Shown here piece by piece: positions 8,098 to 15,209 of a stretch of 64,000 bases of DNA. Below the pieces are notes generated by a model, which was not told where the DNA came from, did not search any database, and was given only the letters and a program-made list of their open reading frames with translations. This DNA is from Fibrobacter sp. UBA4223 (GTDB lineage Bacteria > Fibrobacterota > Fibrobacteria > Fibrobacterales > Fibrobacteraceae), in the NCBI GenBank assembly GCA_002382975.1, contig DFTB01000006.1, positions 62,001-126,000 on the forward strand, given 5' to 3'. The stretch's first letter is position 1. Each line of letters opens with the position of its first letter. The position numbers and the translations under genes were made by a program.

Positions 8098-9180
8098 ATG
8101 ATGAATCCATACAATGCTGAAAACATTGAAGCCGCTTTTGAGCATATCAACAAAGCGCTCTTTATAGACGAATTAGTCGATTCTGTTTCGCGTCTCAAAG
8201 TTTATTCGGCGGTACTCAAAAGGTCTATTGCGCGAGAATCCTGCTTGACCTCGATGTACATGAAGGAGAGTCTGCACTCTAGTCGCATGGAAACAACCAG
8301 AACATCGTTACAAAATTCCCTGGAAAAGACTGTTCTTGAAGACAACTCCGACAAGGATGTTAACGAAGTCAGGAATTATTCCGCCGCAACTCGATACGGA
8401 CGAGAATACCTGATGCGCACCGGGATTTTTACAGAAGAAATGCTTCTTGAAATGCACAGGATTCTTTTGAGCGGAAATGTCCATAGGACCACAAATTCCA
8501 TTGGTTGCTACCGCACTGAACAGAATTTTATTCAAAACGAGAAATCAAAAGAAATTACTTTTGTTCCACCAGCGGTAAAATACGTAAAACCCTTGATGGA
8601 CAACCTGATCCGATTCATGAATAACCCGGAATCTGGAGAAAGAAACCTGATAAATGCAGCCGTTATACACGAACAATTCGAAACCATCCACCCCTTCGCC
8701 GATGGCAATGGACGATTGGGCCGTATGCTCATTCCGTTATTTCTGTTTAAAGAGCGAGAAATCGAGATGCCGTGGCTTTTCTTGAGCGAGGCTATCGAAA
8801 AAGAAAAATTCCGCTACTACAAAATGCTGAATGACGTGCGAACAGGTTGCATGTGGAACGAATGGATTAAATTTTTCCTTGGAATCGTGGATAGGCAATG
8901 TATCAAATATGAAGGAAACGTCCAAAAGATTGAAGAATTATATAGCACCAGCCTAAAAAAGGTGACCAACATTTCTTCATCACGATTGCTAAAACAGGTT
9001 TTCGTCTGTTTCTTCAAAAACCCGATTCAAAACAGTCGTTCCATAGAACGAGAAACGGGACTATCCAACACCACAGTCAACCGAATGTTGGACAAACTCA
9101 CGGCTGGCAATATCGTTTTCGCAGATGAAAAAAAACGTGGCAACCTGTACTATTTCTATGATCTGATTGAATTACTATAA
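8098..9180 (+). CDS. Fic family protein (AMPylation-type) with C-terminal winged helix
   Basis: 360 residues. The catalytic Fic motif HPFADGNGRLGR at residues 198-209 matches HxFx(D/E)GNGRxxR fully, so NMP transfer to a target hydroxyl is expected. An N-terminal Fic_N-type region carries SSRMET at 61-66, close to the (S/T)xxxE(G/N) inhibitory helix motif but with Thr in the last place. The C-terminal ~70 residues (SRSIERETGLSNTTVNRMLDKL) look like a winged helix-turn-helix, common in this subfamily, and may bind DNA. Two adjacent ATGs (8098, 8101) are possible starts. It is divergent from uvrA and convergent with the restriction-like operon, with only 10 bases between stops. A role in defence or toxin-antitoxin control is inferred from location only. 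Confidence 0.9.
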   Translation: MMNPYNAENIEAAFEHINKALFIDELVDSVSRLKVYSAVLKRSIARESCLTSMYMKESLHSSRMETTRTSLQNSLEKTVLEDNSDKDVNEVRNYSAATRYGREYLMRTGIFTEEMLLEMHRILLSGNVHRTTNSIGCYRTEQNFIQNEKSKEITFVPPAVKYVKPLMDNLIRFMNNPESGERNLINAAVIHEQFETIHPFADGNGRLGRMLIPLFLFKEREIEMPWLFLSEAIEKEKFRYYKMLNDVRTGCMWNEWIKFFLGIVDRQCIKYEGNVQKIEELYSTSLKKVTNISSSRLLKQVFVCFFKNPIQNSRSIERETGLSNTTVNRMLDKLTAGNIVFADEKKRGNLYYFYDLIELL

Positions 9181-9190
9181 TTAGTAGGCC

Positions 9191-12100
9191 CTACTTATAC
9201 GCCTTCTCGACCCATTCTGCTAGTTTTCCGTTTTTAGCGAGTTCGGCGGTATCCTTCATCTTGAAATTCGGATAAAGCGCTTGAATTTGCGATGCTGTTT
9301 TGCCTTCGATTTCGTTGTTGAAGCCGAGAATGTAGTGCATAGCAATCATGTAGATGATTTCGGTAGGAGCAGCACCACAGACTTGATTCTTGACGATATG
9401 CTCCAGCCTCTTTGCATCGTCGGGGAAGATTTTCTTCATCTTCTTTGAACGATAAAGGCGCTTGATAATTTCGGTGATATAGAGTCCCGATTTCATGTAC
9501 AGGTCAGCGAAAGTATGCTCCGGGTCATCAAAACAGCCCGGAGTTTCCTTTTCAAGCATATCCACCATGTCCTTTACGACTTTTTTCGGTGTAAAGATTT
9601 GGTTCGTCTTCTGCGGCGGGATGTAGTCGAATATATCGCCCTTTACATCTTCCATGAAGTAGTCCGCCAGTTCCGAGCGTTTGCGCATAAATTCCTTCAC
9701 GGAGTCGTTGAATACGACCGAATCAAAGAGATGACCGTCATAGTGCTTTTTCTTTCCGTCATTTTCGTCGGTGTAATCACCACCATCGCGAAGGAATTTG
9801 AATTCGTCAACAGTAATACTCGTTACTTCGAGGAATACGTTGCCCGGAATGTCGCGTTCAAATGTTTCGAGAGTCGTATTGTCATTTCCGTAGGCCATCA
9901 AGAAAGAGGGAATCGTGCGGGCAAATCCACGCAGGTGGTCGCGAACCTTTTCTTCAATATCATTTTTCTTCTTTTCAATCTTGCTTTCTTCTACAGCCTT
10001 GACGGTTTCCTCTGTCGCCTTTTTCCAAATGTCCGATGTATCAGAAACAGTCTCCTGGAATTTTTTCTTGGCCGTTTCCATTTCTTTTTTGAATTCAGAA
10101 TTAATTTGTTTTTCTTCAGCCTTGGAATTGCAGTTTTTCAACGCCTCGTCGCGCTTATGTTCCGCTGTACCGGCTTCTATCTTGAAATCGGCGGCGGCAG
10201 AACTGATTTTCTTTTGTCCGTAATTTTGCAGCTTGCGTTCAAATTCCTTGGACTGAGATTTGGTCATGTCTTGGCCAAACCTGACTTTGGCTTCTTCGGC
10301 TACTTTCTTTACAGATACATCGTAAACAGTGGTCAATTCCTTAACGATATTTTCAATTTTCGACGGCTCGTGATCTCGCAGTAACCTATTCACGTCTTTT
10401 TCGTAATCATTAGATTGCTGGGCAAAAACCGGATCACCGAACTTATCGGCGGCGGTCCCGACCACCTGTTCCGAGGGAACATCGACATTTCCATTTCCAT
10501 CAAGAGGAAGTTCATTTGCCTGTTCCGGGGTAACAATATTCTTGTCCGCTTCTGCCTTGGTGACAGGATTTACCTTTTTGAGGATGTCGTTTACAATCGA
10601 AGGTGCTGCGAATATGCCGCTAATGTTCTGGAAAAGGAAATTACTCATGAATCCGTGATTCACGACTTCCTTGGCGTGGATATGCCTCGGGATGGACAAC
10701 ACCTTTTCGGCATCCAGTTCAATCATTTCGCCATTGTCGTCTTCGCCAACCACAGGGAAGAAGTTCAAGAGTTCCAGAACATGCTTTTTGCGCTTTTCGC
10801 TATCGCCTGCACCACCAGCAGTATCCTTGTACTGGTCGTTCGCGATAGTTTCAACGATAGTCAGCGTGCGTGCCGGATCAAAATCGAACACATACGCATT
10901 ATCTTTGCGATATGTTTTGCCATCCTTATCCAAAAAAAAGCACGGATTTTGAGCACGGAATGCGGCCTGCATATACAGCGCCGGAGAGCGCATGGAGCAA
11001 AGCATCAGAACAGCAGTCCATTCGGGAATGGTGACGCCCGTCGTAAGCTGCCCCACCGAAAGGGTAATAGTCTTTTCGTTGTTCTTGATAGCTTCGCGGA
11101 CAGCGGTAATCGCCTTCTGGTTTTCCAGTTCCTCGTCGCCATTACCTACAGCAAGGACAACCGTATATTCCTTGAATACAGGGTGCTGTGTCAAAAGCTT
11201 TTTCAAGGCGATGGCTGAATCAACGCGATTCAACAACCAGAACGTATGCTTGAGCTGGTTCCTAAGTTCTTCCGTAGAGAATGGATACTTTTTCTGCTCC
11301 GTGAGAGCGTCCAGGAACTTCTTTACATCTTCGAGATGTTCAAAATACCCCGAAGCATTCGTCTTGAAGAACTCATTCAAGTCAAAGTAGTATTGCGTTT
11401 CTTCGTCATCAATGAGAGTTCCGGCATCGGCCTTCGCACCCATCATATCTGACATCTGGTAGGTGAACAGATTGAGCTTCGGCAAGTCTTCGTAAGGATT
11501 CTCTACACCCTTTTCGGCAAATTCCTTTTTACGCTCCTGTTCGTCAGCGTATGTCCAGTTGAATATCGCTTCTTCGGGGAACTTGTCGGAAGCAAGCATC
11601 TTGAACGGGGTGCCCGAAAGGTTCAGCGTAAAACGGCGTTTGATGCGCTCCAGGGCCACATCCGTTTTATCAGTTTCTACGCCCTCGTGTGCCTCGTCAA
11701 GAATCAGCACATCCCAATCAAGTTCAGAAACTTCGCGGAGTTTTTCGTAATCGCCACCAAAAGCCTTTGCACCTTTAAGGTCTTGCAAGGAGATAAATTC
11801 AATGCAGCCAAGCCTGTTCTTGCTAACAGCACGAGTGAATTCATCCCTTGTCAAAACATGCTTGTATTTTTGCGGATTCTTTTTGAAAACATCCACCTGG
11901 CTTACAAAATAGTAGCCACCTTCCGTCCCGACGAAACGCGCATAATCATTGTACCAGCTATCGGCAATGGCGGGGCGGTTGGTCAAGATAAGCACATTCT
12001 TTGCACCAACGCGCTTGCAAAAATCGTATGCCGTAAGGGTCTTGCCAAAGCGGGGTTTTGCATTCCACAGGAATTCGGGAGCCTTGTCCTTTTTCAGAAT

Positions 12101-12577
12101 TTTCACCAGCTTGTGGTTATCGAAATAATCGGCGGTCTTTCTGGCGGCTTCTTCCTGTTCATCACGGAGTTCGTAGATTTCGACGCCTTCCATTTCGGTA
12201 AGGATTCCGTGATTTTCCTTAAAATCATTGAAATGATTTTTAGATGTCTTTGCATCAGTCTTGAACCACTCCGTTTTCGGTTTCCTTTCGATATCCACCT
12301 TGTTTGTCAGGTATTTATGAAAATCGTAATCACGGAAAGGCGTCAAGTCATCTTCAAAAACAGCCCTACCGCTCCACGCAATAGGGGCATCGGTATCGGA
12401 GGTGTGGGTTTGCTGATGGACGCGATCCTTAACAGCGTCTTTCAAGTTTTCGCCAAAATTGACTTCGGTATCACCGATTTTTATCCACCCGTCATGGGTG
12501 CGGTCATTTGGAGTGGTGTATGCGTATATGGCGCGATTCACGGGCCGCATCGTCTTGATTTGGGTAATGTTCGACAT
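9191..12577 (-). CDS. GIY-YIG-like nuclease / SF2 helicase protein of a restriction-modification-like operon
   Basis: 1128 residues. The first ~100 look like a T5orf172/GIY-YIG-type nuclease (IYAYTTPN...GWIKIGDTE, then RVHQQ and a FHKYL segment). A superfamily 2 helicase core follows: Walker A AKPRFGKT at about residue 175, DEAH box at 293-296, motif III NLSGTPF, and motif VI-like QAAFRAQNP at about 538. A Lys/Glu-rich helical stretch spans about 730-880. The C-terminus (IFTPKKVVKDMVDML near 995, then FADLYMKSGLY) resembles the N-terminal motifs of adenine methyltransferases, but the SAM loop DPxxGxG is not intact. It is the last gene of three: the start overlaps the previous stop (TAATG) and AAGGAG precedes it. 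Likely role: ATP-dependent restriction. The GIY-YIG call is less certain than the helicase. Confidence 0.8.
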   Translation of the reverse strand: MSNITQIKTMRPVNRAIYAYTTPNDRTHDGWIKIGDTEVNFGENLKDAVKDRVHQQTHTSDTDAPIAWSGRAVFEDDLTPFRDYDFHKYLTNKVDIERKPKTEWFKTDAKTSKNHFNDFKENHGILTEMEGVEIYELRDEQEEAARKTADYFDNHKLVKILKKDKAPEFLWNAKPRFGKTLTAYDFCKRVGAKNVLILTNRPAIADSWYNDYARFVGTEGGYYFVSQVDVFKKNPQKYKHVLTRDEFTRAVSKNRLGCIEFISLQDLKGAKAFGGDYEKLREVSELDWDVLILDEAHEGVETDKTDVALERIKRRFTLNLSGTPFKMLASDKFPEEAIFNWTYADEQERKKEFAEKGVENPYEDLPKLNLFTYQMSDMMGAKADAGTLIDDEETQYYFDLNEFFKTNASGYFEHLEDVKKFLDALTEQKKYPFSTEELRNQLKHTFWLLNRVDSAIALKKLLTQHPVFKEYTVVLAVGNGDEELENQKAITAVREAIKNNEKTITLSVGQLTTGVTIPEWTAVLMLCSMRSPALYMQAAFRAQNPCFFLDKDGKTYRKDNAYVFDFDPARTLTIVETIANDQYKDTAGGAGDSEKRKKHVLELLNFFPVVGEDDNGEMIELDAEKVLSIPRHIHAKEVVNHGFMSNFLFQNISGIFAAPSIVNDILKKVNPVTKAEADKNIVTPEQANELPLDGNGNVDVPSEQVVGTAADKFGDPVFAQQSNDYEKDVNRLLRDHEPSKIENIVKELTTVYDVSVKKVAEEAKVRFGQDMTKSQSKEFERKLQNYGQKKISSAAADFKIEAGTAEHKRDEALKNCNSKAEEKQINSEFKKEMETAKKKFQETVSDTSDIWKKATEETVKAVEESKIEKKKNDIEEKVRDHLRGFARTIPSFLMAYGNDNTTLETFERDIPGNVFLEVTSITVDEFKFLRDGGDYTDENDGKKKHYDGHLFDSVVFNDSVKEFMRKRSELADYFMEDVKGDIFDYIPPQKTNQIFTPKKVVKDMVDMLEKETPGCFDDPEHTFADLYMKSGLYITEIIKRLYRSKKMKKIFPDDAKRLEHIVKNQVCGAAPTEIIYMIAMHYILGFNNEIEGKTASQIQALYPNFKMKDTAELAKNGKLAEWVEKAYK

Positions 12578-13599
12578 TAGACCATCTCCTTGACGTGAGT
12601 TTCAATGAAGTCCTTTTCTTCTTTGGAGAGGCCATATTTCTTGTAGAGTTGCAAATCTATTTCGTGAACAGATTTGGTCCAGTCAATATCGGATTTAGAG
12701 GAAAAATCTTGGAGGGGAACGTATTTCCATGTTGGCTTGGCATTGTTTTGGGTAACTTTCAAAACACCAAGCATAGTCCTTACAAATTTCGTTTTCACAT
12801 ATTTTAATGTGGCTTCAGCTTCAGACTTTGAATCAGTTTCACCTATTGATATAAATGTTTCCGTAAAACCGCACATAGGCGCACCACACAACGGGGTACT
12901 TAACATTTCTCCAAAAGAGCCACTACCATTAGCCTTAGGAATCATAACTTTATACTTATGCAAATTGGGCACATCATTCACAAAATCTTTCCTAAACCAT
13001 TTATAACAACGTTCACCATCTGCCAATCCCAAAATTTTCACATACTGATATTCATCTTTTGGTTTTACATCCGTAAACAATGAAGGCATTCTTTCAAAAG
13101 CACTTGGAGCAATACGTGCATCTGCCGTTTTGGCTAATTCCTTCGGACACTTTTTATATGCCAATTGAGAATATCTATAGATACCTCTATTTGTAATCAC
13201 ATCACTAAGACTTCGTTCTTTATATGAAATAACTTTTCTTTTAATGGAATTAAGTTCAGAAAACGCTGTGAAAGCACCTATTGCCTCATATTTTTTTGAA
13301 GAATCATGATAGGTAATTACAACACCACCCTTTATATCAGTATTTGCAAAAATCTTATCACTTTTGGGTTCATAAGACAACACCTTAAAATGTTCATCAT
13401 TAAGCATTTTTTCATTCCAATCTTTCGGTGTTGCCCCTGCGTTGAAAAGAAACCTTGCAGGACTTATTAGCACATACTTATCTGCAACCTGATTTGCAGC
13501 CTCATAAAAATAATGATACAAAGGAGTATCACTTTCATTTGCTCCAATAGAATTTTCTTGATACGGCGGGTTTCCGATTACGGCAAAGAATTTTTTCAT
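12577..13599 (-). CDS. Eco57I-like adenine methyltransferase subunit with NPPY motif
   Basis: 340 residues. It starts at once with the catalytic motif IV of N6-adenine methyltransferases (FFAVIGNPPYQ, residues 4-14) and has no SAM-binding motif I upstream of it. The middle (KYVLISPARFLFNAG, then SDKIFANTDIKGGVVITYH) is typical of Eco57I/TaqI-type enzymes, and the C-terminal half could hold target recognition. The SAM-binding part must come from a partner, presumably the preceding gene (313 residues) or the C-terminus of the helicase. The start overlaps the previous stop by 4 bases (ATGA) and has AAAGGAG at good spacing. The coding sequence is visibly more AT-rich than the flanking housekeeping genes, which suggests transfer. 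Confidence 0.85.
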   Translation of the reverse strand: MKKFFAVIGNPPYQENSIGANESDTPLYHYFYEAANQVADKYVLISPARFLFNAGATPKDWNEKMLNDEHFKVLSYEPKSDKIFANTDIKGGVVITYHDSSKKYEAIGAFTAFSELNSIKRKVISYKERSLSDVITNRGIYRYSQLAYKKCPKELAKTADARIAPSAFERMPSLFTDVKPKDEYQYVKILGLADGERCYKWFRKDFVNDVPNLHKYKVMIPKANGSGSFGEMLSTPLCGAPMCGFTETFISIGETDSKSEAEATLKYVKTKFVRTMLGVLKVTQNNAKPTWKYVPLQDFSSKSDIDWTKSVHEIDLQLYKKYGLSKEEKDFIETHVKEMV

Positions 13600-14537
13600 T
13601 TTCCATTCTCCTTTGATTTTAAAGAGTTGTAGGTCCGGCTGAAGCGTCTTCGCCAGTCAAAAATCAGGCATTCCTCGGTGGCATCGGAGTCGCCGGTTTC
13701 GTTTTCCACTTCGAATCCGGGAAGCGTCATTTGTCCGCATTCCTTTTCCTTGATTTGCGGAGTCCTGCCCGTAAGGCCATCCATCTGCCAAAAGTTCCAC
13801 GCAATCACGTTGGCAGCACTCCGCGCCGTCGTTCTGTCCGGTTTTTCGCCTAATTTCTTTTCCCAATGTTCCGTCCAAGACAAGAACACGTTGATGCGGG
13901 CAATCAAGAGGTTGTCCCCCTGGAACTCGTACCCATAACAACTTTCCAAAGAACGCATGGACCATTTCTTGTATTCATCTCCGTCCGCATTCTCTTCGAC
14001 CACGCGAAGCTTACGGTCCAAGAAACCAATGCGATCCTTGACCTCGATAAAAATTCCATCTGTGGGGTTGTAACGGCTCGTCACGAAGGGCGCTTCGCCG
14101 CAGGTGATTTCGAGCCTTGTCTGGTCAACGTATTCTTGCCAGGTTTTTCCATCGTTAAACTGGATTTTTTTACGATTCCTAGTCCAAGCCTTATCGCCTT
14201 CGGTATTGAATGCTCCTGTATAGCCCAGGTAGTCATCGTCCAGGGCGTTGTTCATTTGGTTGCAAATCCACGACGGCGTAAAGACTTCGGCACGCTTCTT
14301 GGTGCGATCCCTTTGGGCGTCAAGGGTCTTGGCGATTCGCGGACGCACAAGCATCAGGCTCCCGCCGGTGATGTCTTTGAAATCTATTTCGCTTTTCGGG
14401 GAAATGGCGTCGTATTCGTCCGTGGCCCACAGGATGTTCTTGCCCGTGGTCTTGTCCTTTAACAATATGGGGAGTACGGCGCCTCGATACACGTCAAAGA
14501 TTTGCCGGACAGGTGTGTCAGCCGCAATGTTTTTCAT
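13596..14537 (-). CDS. DNA methyltransferase-associated subunit (restriction-modification M component)
   Basis: 313 residues. KKRAEVFTPSWICNQMNN at about residues 78-95 is the usual motif X-like entry of N6-adenine methyltransferases. It is followed by LEITCGEAPFVTSRY, RIGFLDRKLRVV and SCYGYEFQGDNLLIARINV, blocks I recall from proteins annotated as restriction endonuclease subunit M in gut anaerobes. No NPPY is seen here; that motif is in the next gene, so the two may jointly form one methyltransferase. It is the first gene of the operon; GGGAGAATGG lies before the ATG at 14537. An inverted repeat (14547-14553 with 14581-14587) partly covers this ribosome-binding site. Confidence 0.75.
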   Translation of the reverse strand: MKNIAADTPVRQIFDVYRGAVLPILLKDKTTGKNILWATDEYDAISPKSEIDFKDITGGSLMLVRPRIAKTLDAQRDRTKKRAEVFTPSWICNQMNNALDDDYLGYTGAFNTEGDKAWTRNRKKIQFNDGKTWQEYVDQTRLEITCGEAPFVTSRYNPTDGIFIEVKDRIGFLDRKLRVVEENADGDEYKKWSMRSLESCYGYEFQGDNLLIARINVFLSWTEHWEKKLGEKPDRTTARSAANVIAWNFWQMDGLTGRTPQIKEKECGQMTLPGFEVENETGDSDATEECLIFDWRRRFSRTYNSLKSKENGK

Positions 14538-14546
14538 TCCATTCTC

Positions 14547-14587
14547 CCGAACTTCAAGCGCAACGTTCTGTTTCGCTCCCGTTCGGG
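14547..14587 (-). promoter_or_regulatory. inverted repeat over the leader of the restriction-like operon
   Basis: CCCGAAC at 14547-14553 pairs with GTTCGGG at 14581-14587. On the transcribed minus strand the downstream arm runs into the GGGAG ribosome-binding site of the first methyltransferase gene, so the hairpin could limit translation. The stem is only 7 bp and the loop 27 bases. Confidence 0.35.
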
Positions 14588-14692
14588 GACTGGATTACGG
14601 CGATTTCACAAAAAGAGAATACACGACGCCCTAGGCATACAATACGCCCACGCCAAAACGGGGCGCGCATGCGTCCGGATTTCTGAGTACCC

Positions 14693-14742
14693 TCTTATTC
14701 TTCTGTTTTGAAATTGTCGAGATTCCATGCCAAGAACAAGAG
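14693..14742 (-). repeat. 50-bp repeat, copy 2
   Basis: This copy is identical to 14961-15010 at 45 of 50 positions. Its outer arms (TCTTATTCT and AGAACAAGAG) are less complementary than in the other copy, and it has an additional inverted repeat with its flank (ACAAGAG 14736-14742 with CTCTTGT 14760-14766). On the minus strand it is followed by a short GGACGC-containing stretch also seen after copy 1, suggesting a decayed second copy of a longer unit. Confidence 0.85.
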
Positions 14743-14785
14743 CCGACTCATGGGAATTTCTCTTGTCCTAGCATTTTTACCGCAC

Positions 14786-14866
14786 AAAAAAAAGGCGTGA
14801 GGTTGAATGTCCTTACGACATGAGGCTCTCGACAGCCCAAACAGGTAAGGACAAACAACCCACGCC
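14786..14866 (-). terminator. large hairpin with U-tract
   Basis: 19 bp in three stacked stems between 14794-14816 and 14845-14866, plus an inner 4-bp stem, followed on the minus strand by T8 at 14786-14793. It is far larger than an ordinary intrinsic terminator, so it may be the 3' domain of a small RNA as well as its terminator. Confidence 0.65.
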
Positions 14867-14960
14867 CCATAAAGGCCGATACGCACAAACGGACCGCACA
14901 AGGGCGGCCTGCATAGCGAACCGTTGCCGGCACTTGCATGCCGACAGACGTGAGCGTCCG

Positions 14961-15010
14961 TCTTATTCTCCTGTTTTGAAATTGTCGAGATTTCATGTCG
15001 AGAATAAGAG
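14961..15010 (-). repeat. 50-bp repeat, copy 1
   Basis: The outer arms form a perfect 9-bp inverted repeat (CTTATTCTC with GAGAATAAG) around an inner GAAAT/ATTTC pair. It shares 45 of 50 bases with 14693-14742, 268 bp away in the same orientation. Two copies with a 218-base interval do not fit a CRISPR array. Confidence 0.85.
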
Positions 15011-15209
15011 AAACTCTCTATTTTTCAAGTTGAATATAGATTATTATTGTTGAGGGTATACTTGCATTGAAATTTTTTTCAATATCTAACTCTTTGGCAG
15101 ACAACAAATAAGAAACATTTTTGTTTTGTTTTGTTTATTAAACAACAAAAACCACTTGTTTTTAGTCAAAATTTAGAGTATATTTATGTTATGGAACAGA
15201 ATGTCCGGC

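Follow-up and report, generated by a model that had tools for sequence, protein, structure and literature searches.

Transcription attenuators and riboswitches of the trp, T-box and SAM types are built on a terminator and an antiterminator that exclude one another by sharing a strand, and antisense RNA control is known for single restriction-modification (R-M) systems. R-M systems are also governed by DNA-binding proteins, and RptR, itself a DNA-binding protein, governs a defence island (PMC12255303). In attenuators of the pT181 type, a leader carries a terminator, and the decision is taken through a kissing hairpin, the sequence of which determines specificity (PMC3753616).

Here we describe a leader RNA of Fibrobacter which, judged by analogy, would work most like the pT181-type attenuators, membership of that family not being claimed. 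Both have a leader terminator and a specificity-setting kissing hairpin (PMC3753616); the antisense RNA there is a separate molecule, whereas both partners lie within one Fibrobacter leader. Its pairing sequence (the address) differs between the many copies that the chromosome carries ahead of R-M and surface genes. With classical attenuators and riboswitches it has in common a terminator and antiterminator on a shared strand, but its short class shows no visible aptamer core, it has no conserved leader peptide or common pathway, and it adds an apex-to-apex pairing of three helices. Like C proteins, RptR and antisense control, it would hold R-M expression in check; C proteins and RptR are DNA-binding proteins, however, whereas here an RNA leader family is common to several R-M types and to non-R-M genes. 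A genus-wide RNA leader common to several R-M types and surface proteins would amount to shared RNA-level control of defence genes.

The window analysed is a 64,000-nt stretch of a Fibrobacter contig, from a 2.15-Mb draft genome (G000) that is 65% complete. On its minus strand, the leader and the restriction operon behind it comprise the following parts:

15032..15038, minus strand: TATATTC, candidate −10 box of the leader promoter
14786..15013, minus strand: leader RNA (putative attenuator), U-tract included; matched by covariance model R1 at 15013–14789 with 192.6 bits, a training-set score since the window copy belonged to the R1 training set
15000..15008, minus strand: 5' strand of hairpin P1 (P1 pairing in 55 short-class copies)
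14971..14999, minus strand: 5' address in the P1 apex (a, 14999–14993; k, 14990–14983; b, 14976–14971)
14962..14970, minus strand: 3' strand of hairpin P1 (P1 pairing in the short class)
14948..14961, minus strand: constant segment C, putative antiterminator strand, pairing with S at 14868–14845 (the unguided choice of RNAalifold)
14869..14947, minus strand: variable middle domain, missing in the short class (alignment A1 compared with short-class alignment A3)
14845..14868, minus strand: shared strand S, both the 5' strand of hairpin P3 and the partner of C (P3, C–S and the triples described below)
14817..14844, minus strand: 3' address in the P3 apex (b', 14844–14839; k', 14834–14827; a', 14823–14817)
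14794..14816, minus strand: strand T, the 3' strand of P3, a predicted terminator (P3 pairing)
14786..14793, minus strand: U8 tract (read from the sequence)
14692..14742, minus strand: A', a second P1-like element with the leader's own address
13596..14537, minus strand: operon gene 1, type II methyltransferase-like, 313 aa (PADLOC MTase_II, 5.4e-84; product with no Pfam match)
12577..13599, minus strand: operon gene 2, with an Eco57I-type methylase domain (PF07669, 3.8e-15; PADLOC MTase_II, 2e-37)
9191..12577, minus strand: operon gene 3, restriction-type helicase, 1128 aa (PF04851 ResIII, 4.6e-14; type IIG model, 1.1e-13)

The original prediction for this locus had described two 50-bp direct repeats 268 bp apart, each followed by GGACGC, together with a large minus-strand hairpin, eight U and a TATATTC box, and all of these can be recovered. 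The repeat copies at 14690–14742 and 14958–15010 are 53 nt long, 89% identical and 268 bp apart, with GGACGC after both; the hairpin spans 14868–14794, followed by U8 at 14793–14786; and the box lies at 15032–15038. Elsewhere, the recurring unit corresponds to 15013–14786, plus the second element (14742–14692) in one subclass. The minus strand of 14690–15030 folds at −132.8 kcal/mol compared to −97.9 kcal/mol (s.d. 4.9) for shuffled sequences (z = −7.1), with none of 100 dinucleotide shuffles folding as low, while the plus strand reaches z = −4.0. A simple terminator scan omits the hairpin at 14868–14794 because its loop is longer than the scan permits, and a simple sigma-70 scan was not informative at the locus (2 promoter-like sites versus 1.0 expected). 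Across copies, TAT[AT]T occurs within 60 nt upstream of the leader in 131 of 178, the last such motif falling at −32 to −21 in 90 copies and at −60 to −54 in 37, and U runs of 5–8 follow P3 in 151 of 180. An 82-aa ORF over the RNA (14748–14996) was rejected as a leader peptide: its start is non-conserved because the ORF begins inside the variable address.

A DNA query with 15030–14785 gave matches in 23 of 41 genomes. All 23 belong to the window's genus, with up to 13 matches per genome and nine in the window's genome (some of them parts of one copy); matches to an RNA pattern fell mostly in records named Fibrobacter (F. succinogenes, F. intestinalis and metagenome-assembled genomes). R1, the covariance model built from alignment A1 (30 leader copies), matched 37 of 37 genomes of the genus compared to none of 23 others. 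A covariance-model search was among the checks named in the original prediction; run on 167 genomes of the phylum under strict filters, R1 matched 79 of the 80 that belong to the genus, plus 13 others. The matches beyond the genus were in g18 (6), g23 (3), g19 (1) and g16 (1, weak), all of the same family, and in two genomes of the distant family f9. A second model, R2, trained partly on R1 matches from outside the genus, matched 5 of 35 genomes with no R1 matches or only weak ones, and its matches in G053 (family f7) and G055 (f8) are to genomes absent from every training set. Divergent members of the leader occur in three other families of the phylum.

Some matches carry other taxonomic labels. 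A divergent copy (L103:127-299, 36 bits) lies on a Tannerellaceae metagenome-assembled contig, before an ORF reading like an acyltransferase by eye (gene names given 'by eye', here and below, come from reading translations, with no profile); if the binning is right, this copy is outside the phylum. Typical Fibrobacter leaders were also seen on contigs labelled Bacteroidales, Bacilli, Treponema or Lachnospiraceae (L063, L068, L110, L111, L129, L131 and L141), and such metagenome-assembled contigs of 3–18 kb with strong matches may be mis-binned Fibrobacter. The model scanned 80 of the 117 stretches with 23-mer matches, the results being taken from the matches listed; three Pseudomonas records (L071, L109 and L114) that each match a 23-mer exactly were set aside as chance, with no model match among those listed. 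Viral contigs gave no exact match to a 23-base pattern, and phages and plasmids gave no BLAST match at E ≤ 1e-5, searches that divergent copies would escape. In agreement with the earlier statement that no named RNA family fits, Rfam release 15 contained no family matching at the gathering score, and at E ≤ 1 there were only two matches, far under the cut-offs (E = 0.04 and 0.13) and neither credible. Full-text literature searching returned no description of the leader RNA among its top-ranked results, which included few subscription papers. As far as these searches reach, the leader RNA is undescribed as a family.

Downstream genes were surveyed for the leaders that the model scored above 49 bits across 14 near-complete genomes (96 of 115 rows), of which 91 were handled as loci, with ORFs called mechanically rather than by a gene finder. 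The strand count was repeated with no preset strand because the first listing had chosen the co-directional strand beforehand. The next downstream ORF of at least 100 aa was co-directional at 85 of the 91 loci, opposite at 3 and absent at 3, compared to 27 same-strand, 44 opposite-strand and 20 absent neighbours upstream. The original view that a structured RNA is transcribed toward the methyltransferase-helicase operon is supported. In the short class, which accounts for 52 of the 91 leader copies, the chosen start codon lay 44–118 nt past the leader in 39 of 52.

In the 14 genomes, 47 of the 96 leaders precede genes of three methyltransferase Pfam families. Counted from the genes, 44 of 113 have a co-directional leader at most 4 kb upstream, none has an opposite one and 69 have no leader; by family, a same-strand leader within this distance is found for N6_Mtase in 21 of 57, C5 in 9 of 30 and N6_N4_Mtase in 14 of 26, with none on the opposite strand. 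Among 88 first genes, the leading Pfam families were N6_Mtase (20), Eco57I (12), MmeI methyltransferase (10), N6_N4_Mtase (10), HsdM_N (8), C5 methylase (7), Fib_succ_major (7) and EcoRI methylase (6), in a tally whose members overlap and whose counts come from the best 25 of 49 families, the others being smaller. Many of the remaining first genes start like lipoproteins or secreted proteins (by eye). The three leaders of G055 precede, by eye, a type III methyltransferase-like protein in one case and secreted or lipoprotein-like proteins in the others. At L043:13721, L046, L048 and L052, the leader is followed by an EcoRI-type adenine methyltransferase-like gene and then by a gene reading like DUF262 (GmrSD-like), and opposite-strand upstream neighbours reading like RhuM, ORF6N or Rpn were seen at L050, L051, L056 and L061 (all by eye). 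In type III toxin-antitoxin RNAs, tandem antitoxin repeats are followed by one toxin-gene family; we rejected this identity for a single unit with at most one A', whose first downstream genes span 49 Pfam families.

Given no structure, RNAalifold chose a long-range fold for alignment A1 rather than the terminator hairpin. In this fold, C pairs with S, the apices of P1 and of the terminator hairpin pair with each other, and 18 of 33 pairs carry at least one compensated change. The individual helices were measured in A3, a short-class alignment (n = 55; 52 of the 91 loci plus three from the window's genome) that has no middle domain. P1 was paired in 85.3% of cells compared to at most 57.8% when slid, with both-side changes at 9 of 10 pairs; the corresponding values were 92.5%, at most 57.3% and 12 of 20 pairs for P3, and 95.4%, at most 56.5% and 4 of 15 pairs for C–S. 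The apex-to-apex pairing, a/k/b, was paired in 80.0% of cells versus at most 43.5% slid. For each of P1, P3, a/k/b and C–S, the percentage paired and the covariation score were above all 500 shuffles, a comparison to be read with caution since related sequences alone can surpass shuffles. For a/k/b, covariation was 0.610 versus 0.191 shuffled (0 of 500 shuffles as high); both-side changes affected 20 of 23 pairs, a count matched in 333 of 500 shuffles and hence no excess, and the number of pair types was no higher than in shuffles (244 of 500). The compensatory changes in homologous loci on which the original prediction was to stand or fall were found, in P1, P3, a/k/b and C–S.

P3 and C–S are mutually exclusive because both use strand S. 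Triples of C, S and T that share this strand co-change at three places, in two lineages, a modest number: columns 84/98/186 go from GCG to AUA in L244 and L249, and columns 81/100/184 go from AUA to GCG and columns 79/102/182 from UGC to UAU in L248 and L251. C–S is otherwise mostly invariant, and single changes at several triples break one helix. The exclusive helix pair is also written in other letters, by eye, in distant genomes: in L274 (C, GUGCGUCCC; S, GGGACGCGC; T, CGCGUCCC) and in L272 (C, GUAGUUCAC; S, GUGAACUAU; T, AUAGUUCAC).

Together, the leader shares three features with attenuators: a G+C-rich stem, P3, with covariation and a U-run ahead of a gene; an antiterminator that excludes the terminator via a shared strand, also in distant members; and a same-strand gene directly downstream (85 of 91). 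On this sequence evidence, the leader of the restriction operon is probably a 5' leader acting in cis as a transcription attenuator. The original prediction had instead favoured one or two stand-alone small RNAs, with P3 as an ordinary terminator, action in trans through the P1 and P3 apices and downstream genes served by their own promoter. A compact RNA with a promoter-like box and a terminator would suit this reading, as would kissing-type apices carrying copy-specific addresses. It is no longer the likeliest, and we consider it improbable, given the co-directional genes behind those 85 copies, the conserved C–S helix that competes with the terminator and the finding that a promoter-like box (TAT[AT]T) is no commoner in the 60 nt after the U-tract (35 of 180 copies) than in 60 nt inside the leader RNA (29 of 180).

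Two further readings were weighed. The leader position and the choice between terminator and antiterminator are equally those of a metabolite riboswitch, but P1, the address, C, a short loop and P3 are all that the short class contains, with no conserved unpaired ligand core by eye, and the regulated genes have no common pathway; a riboswitch is therefore very hard to credit. A DNA element, either an attachment or cassette site (integron attC-like) or a recombination site whose hairpins form as single-stranded DNA, would account for mobile-type cargo, several copies per genome and the copy-gene-copy-gene order at loci such as L042 and L045. Against this, G–U pairs are frequent in P1, P3 and C–S, the hairpins are followed, on one strand, by a U-tract and by a gene that has an SD-like sequence, and no integrase was noticed among the neighbours listed, so that we give this reading, too, very little weight.

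The pairing between the P1 and P3 apices is specific to each copy. Fixed anchors allowed 76 of the 91 copies to be cut. In these, pairing of the 5' apex with the 3' apex of its own copy averages −33.4 kcal/mol compared to −12.6 kcal/mol with other copies of the same genome, and the own 3' apex is the best partner within the genome in 74 of 76 copies (14 expected by chance). The duplex of the window copy reaches −33.6 kcal/mol. Addresses also change quickly. We compared 18 orthologous pairs that do not overlap and that share at least 90% identity over the 150 nt past the leader: the 5' apex is below 90% identity in 11 and at or above it in 7; mean identity in these pairs is 0.949 downstream, 0.915 between the apices and 0.825 and 0.794 in the two apices, values from crude cuts in which the apices contain conserved stem letters.

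The clearest view of such a change comes from the comparison of the window with G019. Here, the two agree at every position over ~125 nt, from the P1 3' strand through S, and differ at 3 places over ~190 nt beyond A', while the ~45 nt from the U-tract to A' differ at a dozen places; a and b have changed at the P1 apex, the P3 apex and A', with pairing retained, and k is the same. The address, as read from these sequences, can change on both sides while the intervening sequence stays. Whole-unit exchange with another copy was rejected as the source, as it leaves the kept middle unexplained. In quasi-palindrome template switching, one arm is copied from the other during replication; by analogy, copying of this kind may lie behind the rapid change of the address, as may positive selection. 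In the address, helices evolve more quickly than the sequence around them and yet remain paired. Its variants make up a natural set of dozens of copy-specific RNA–RNA interfaces built on a single scaffold, which could serve both to study why such contacts diversify and as components of RNA circuits.

In one subclass, the address is present a third time. A' starts ~56 nt past the leader in 34 of 180 copies, which include the window copy and belong without exception to the long class, at a local score of at least 24 (one further copy scores 23 and the next 12). Its pairing with the 3' apex of its own leader is about as strong as that of the first copy, at −30.6 kcal/mol versus −19.4 kcal/mol for others, and this apex is its best partner in 20 of 34. 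The 3' apex of A' transcripts can, on this pairing, join either of two elements. The earlier idea that the second repeat copy is merely decayed is not supported, with the address kept in 34 of 180 copies and co-changed with the other two sites in G019.

Copy-specific addresses raise the reading that the leader also acts in trans, with terminated leaders accumulating and their free apices binding nascent leaders that carry the same address; an operon would in this way count its own product, like plasmids whose copy number is controlled by RNA. If this is true, address changes define incompatibility groups. It is compatible with a cis attenuator, and the probabilities of the two overlap. The address pairing is far stronger within than between copies, identity of the 5' apex falls below 90% in 11 of the 18 orthologous pairs, the two apices and A' have co-changed between the window and G019, and purely cis pairing offers no obvious reason for such fast change. 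Same-genome addresses are nonetheless no more different than expected: insulation between copies of a genome is unsupported, with 31 of 318 pairs (9.7%) binding at −20 kcal/mol or below compared to 9.3% for shuffled labels, and 314 of 500 label shuffles as low as observed. Moreover, two genomes each have two copies of near-identical address, and the 5' apex is at least 90% identical in 7 of the 18 pairs. We regard action in trans as unlikely on balance. A fuller version, which we offer as a speculation of rather low probability, is a self-addressed circuit in which each restriction or surface operon of Fibrobacterota bears a private address (thrice in the A' subclass) and terminated leaders would recognise only their own locus and set it on or off. 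Addresses would then turn over like plasmid incompatibility groups, and newly entering operons, often with the methyltransferase first, would meet no matching leader RNA and be expressed at once.

For the cis attenuator, the sequences themselves display the helices, their mutual exclusion, the position before co-directional genes and the address code; from these we infer a promoter, termination, read-through and a sign of the address effect as follows. RNA polymerase would start near 15025 and make P1, then C, then S, and C and S would pair as the antiterminator. T, once made, may take S from C, in which case P3 and the U-tract would end transcription ahead of the genes; where C retained S, the operon would be read. 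Pairing between the P1 and P3 apices (a–a', k–k' and b–b') would be the decision element. Three copies without C have kept the address, P1 and P3, and for this reason we lean toward a role in which the apex pairing tethers P1 to P3 and promotes termination, the sign of the effect being close to evenly balanced.

A leader prefix ending before T takes the C–S fold in all 174 copies (a count with no shuffled control), so the antiterminator would be available ahead of the terminator. Folded in full with no pseudoknots, the leader prefers C–S in 75 of 76 copies of the short class; in the long class, 58 of 98 copies prefer C–S and only 40 the terminator. Because nested folds favour the antiterminator, termination would rest on kinetics or on a/k/b coexisting with P1 and P3. 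A rough sum for a/k/b with P1 and P3 in the short class puts the terminated fold ahead (−75.3 versus −66.2 kcal/mol), whereas the long-class sum of −75.9 kcal/mol is not comparable with the nested minimum free energy of −95.6 kcal/mol, as it omits the middle domain. Conserved apical stems would favour this coexistence, a point weakened by partial retention of the P1 apical stem (50, 55, 28 and 29 of 55 copies at its four pairs). If apex pairing is possible only in the C–S fold, the antiterminated fold wins.

Several natural variants bear on individual parts. In L044:4003-4162, L228:3501-3668 and L231:3501-3670, P1 is extended into C (by eye) and C–S is lost, with the address and P3 kept; these copies follow R-M-like genes, 248–412 nt ahead of the next ORF, and may be intergenic terminators. 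L135:1234-1382 is a natural antiterminator deletion, lacking 13 nt around C and otherwise identical to L077:3088-3249. L029 (G002:C52, ~1229-1298) has kept P1 and lost S and the 3' apex, with an ORF close behind, making it a natural terminator-less copy.

In the window itself, two weak terminator-like inverted repeats lie past A' (14500–14690), and the sequence after A' contains a weak covariance-model match (14610–14745, 22 bits), which suggests that the sequence beyond A' is possibly the remnant of a decayed second leader. At the far end of the restriction operon, a Fic/DOC protein gene (8098–9180) adjoins the operon and is convergent with it.
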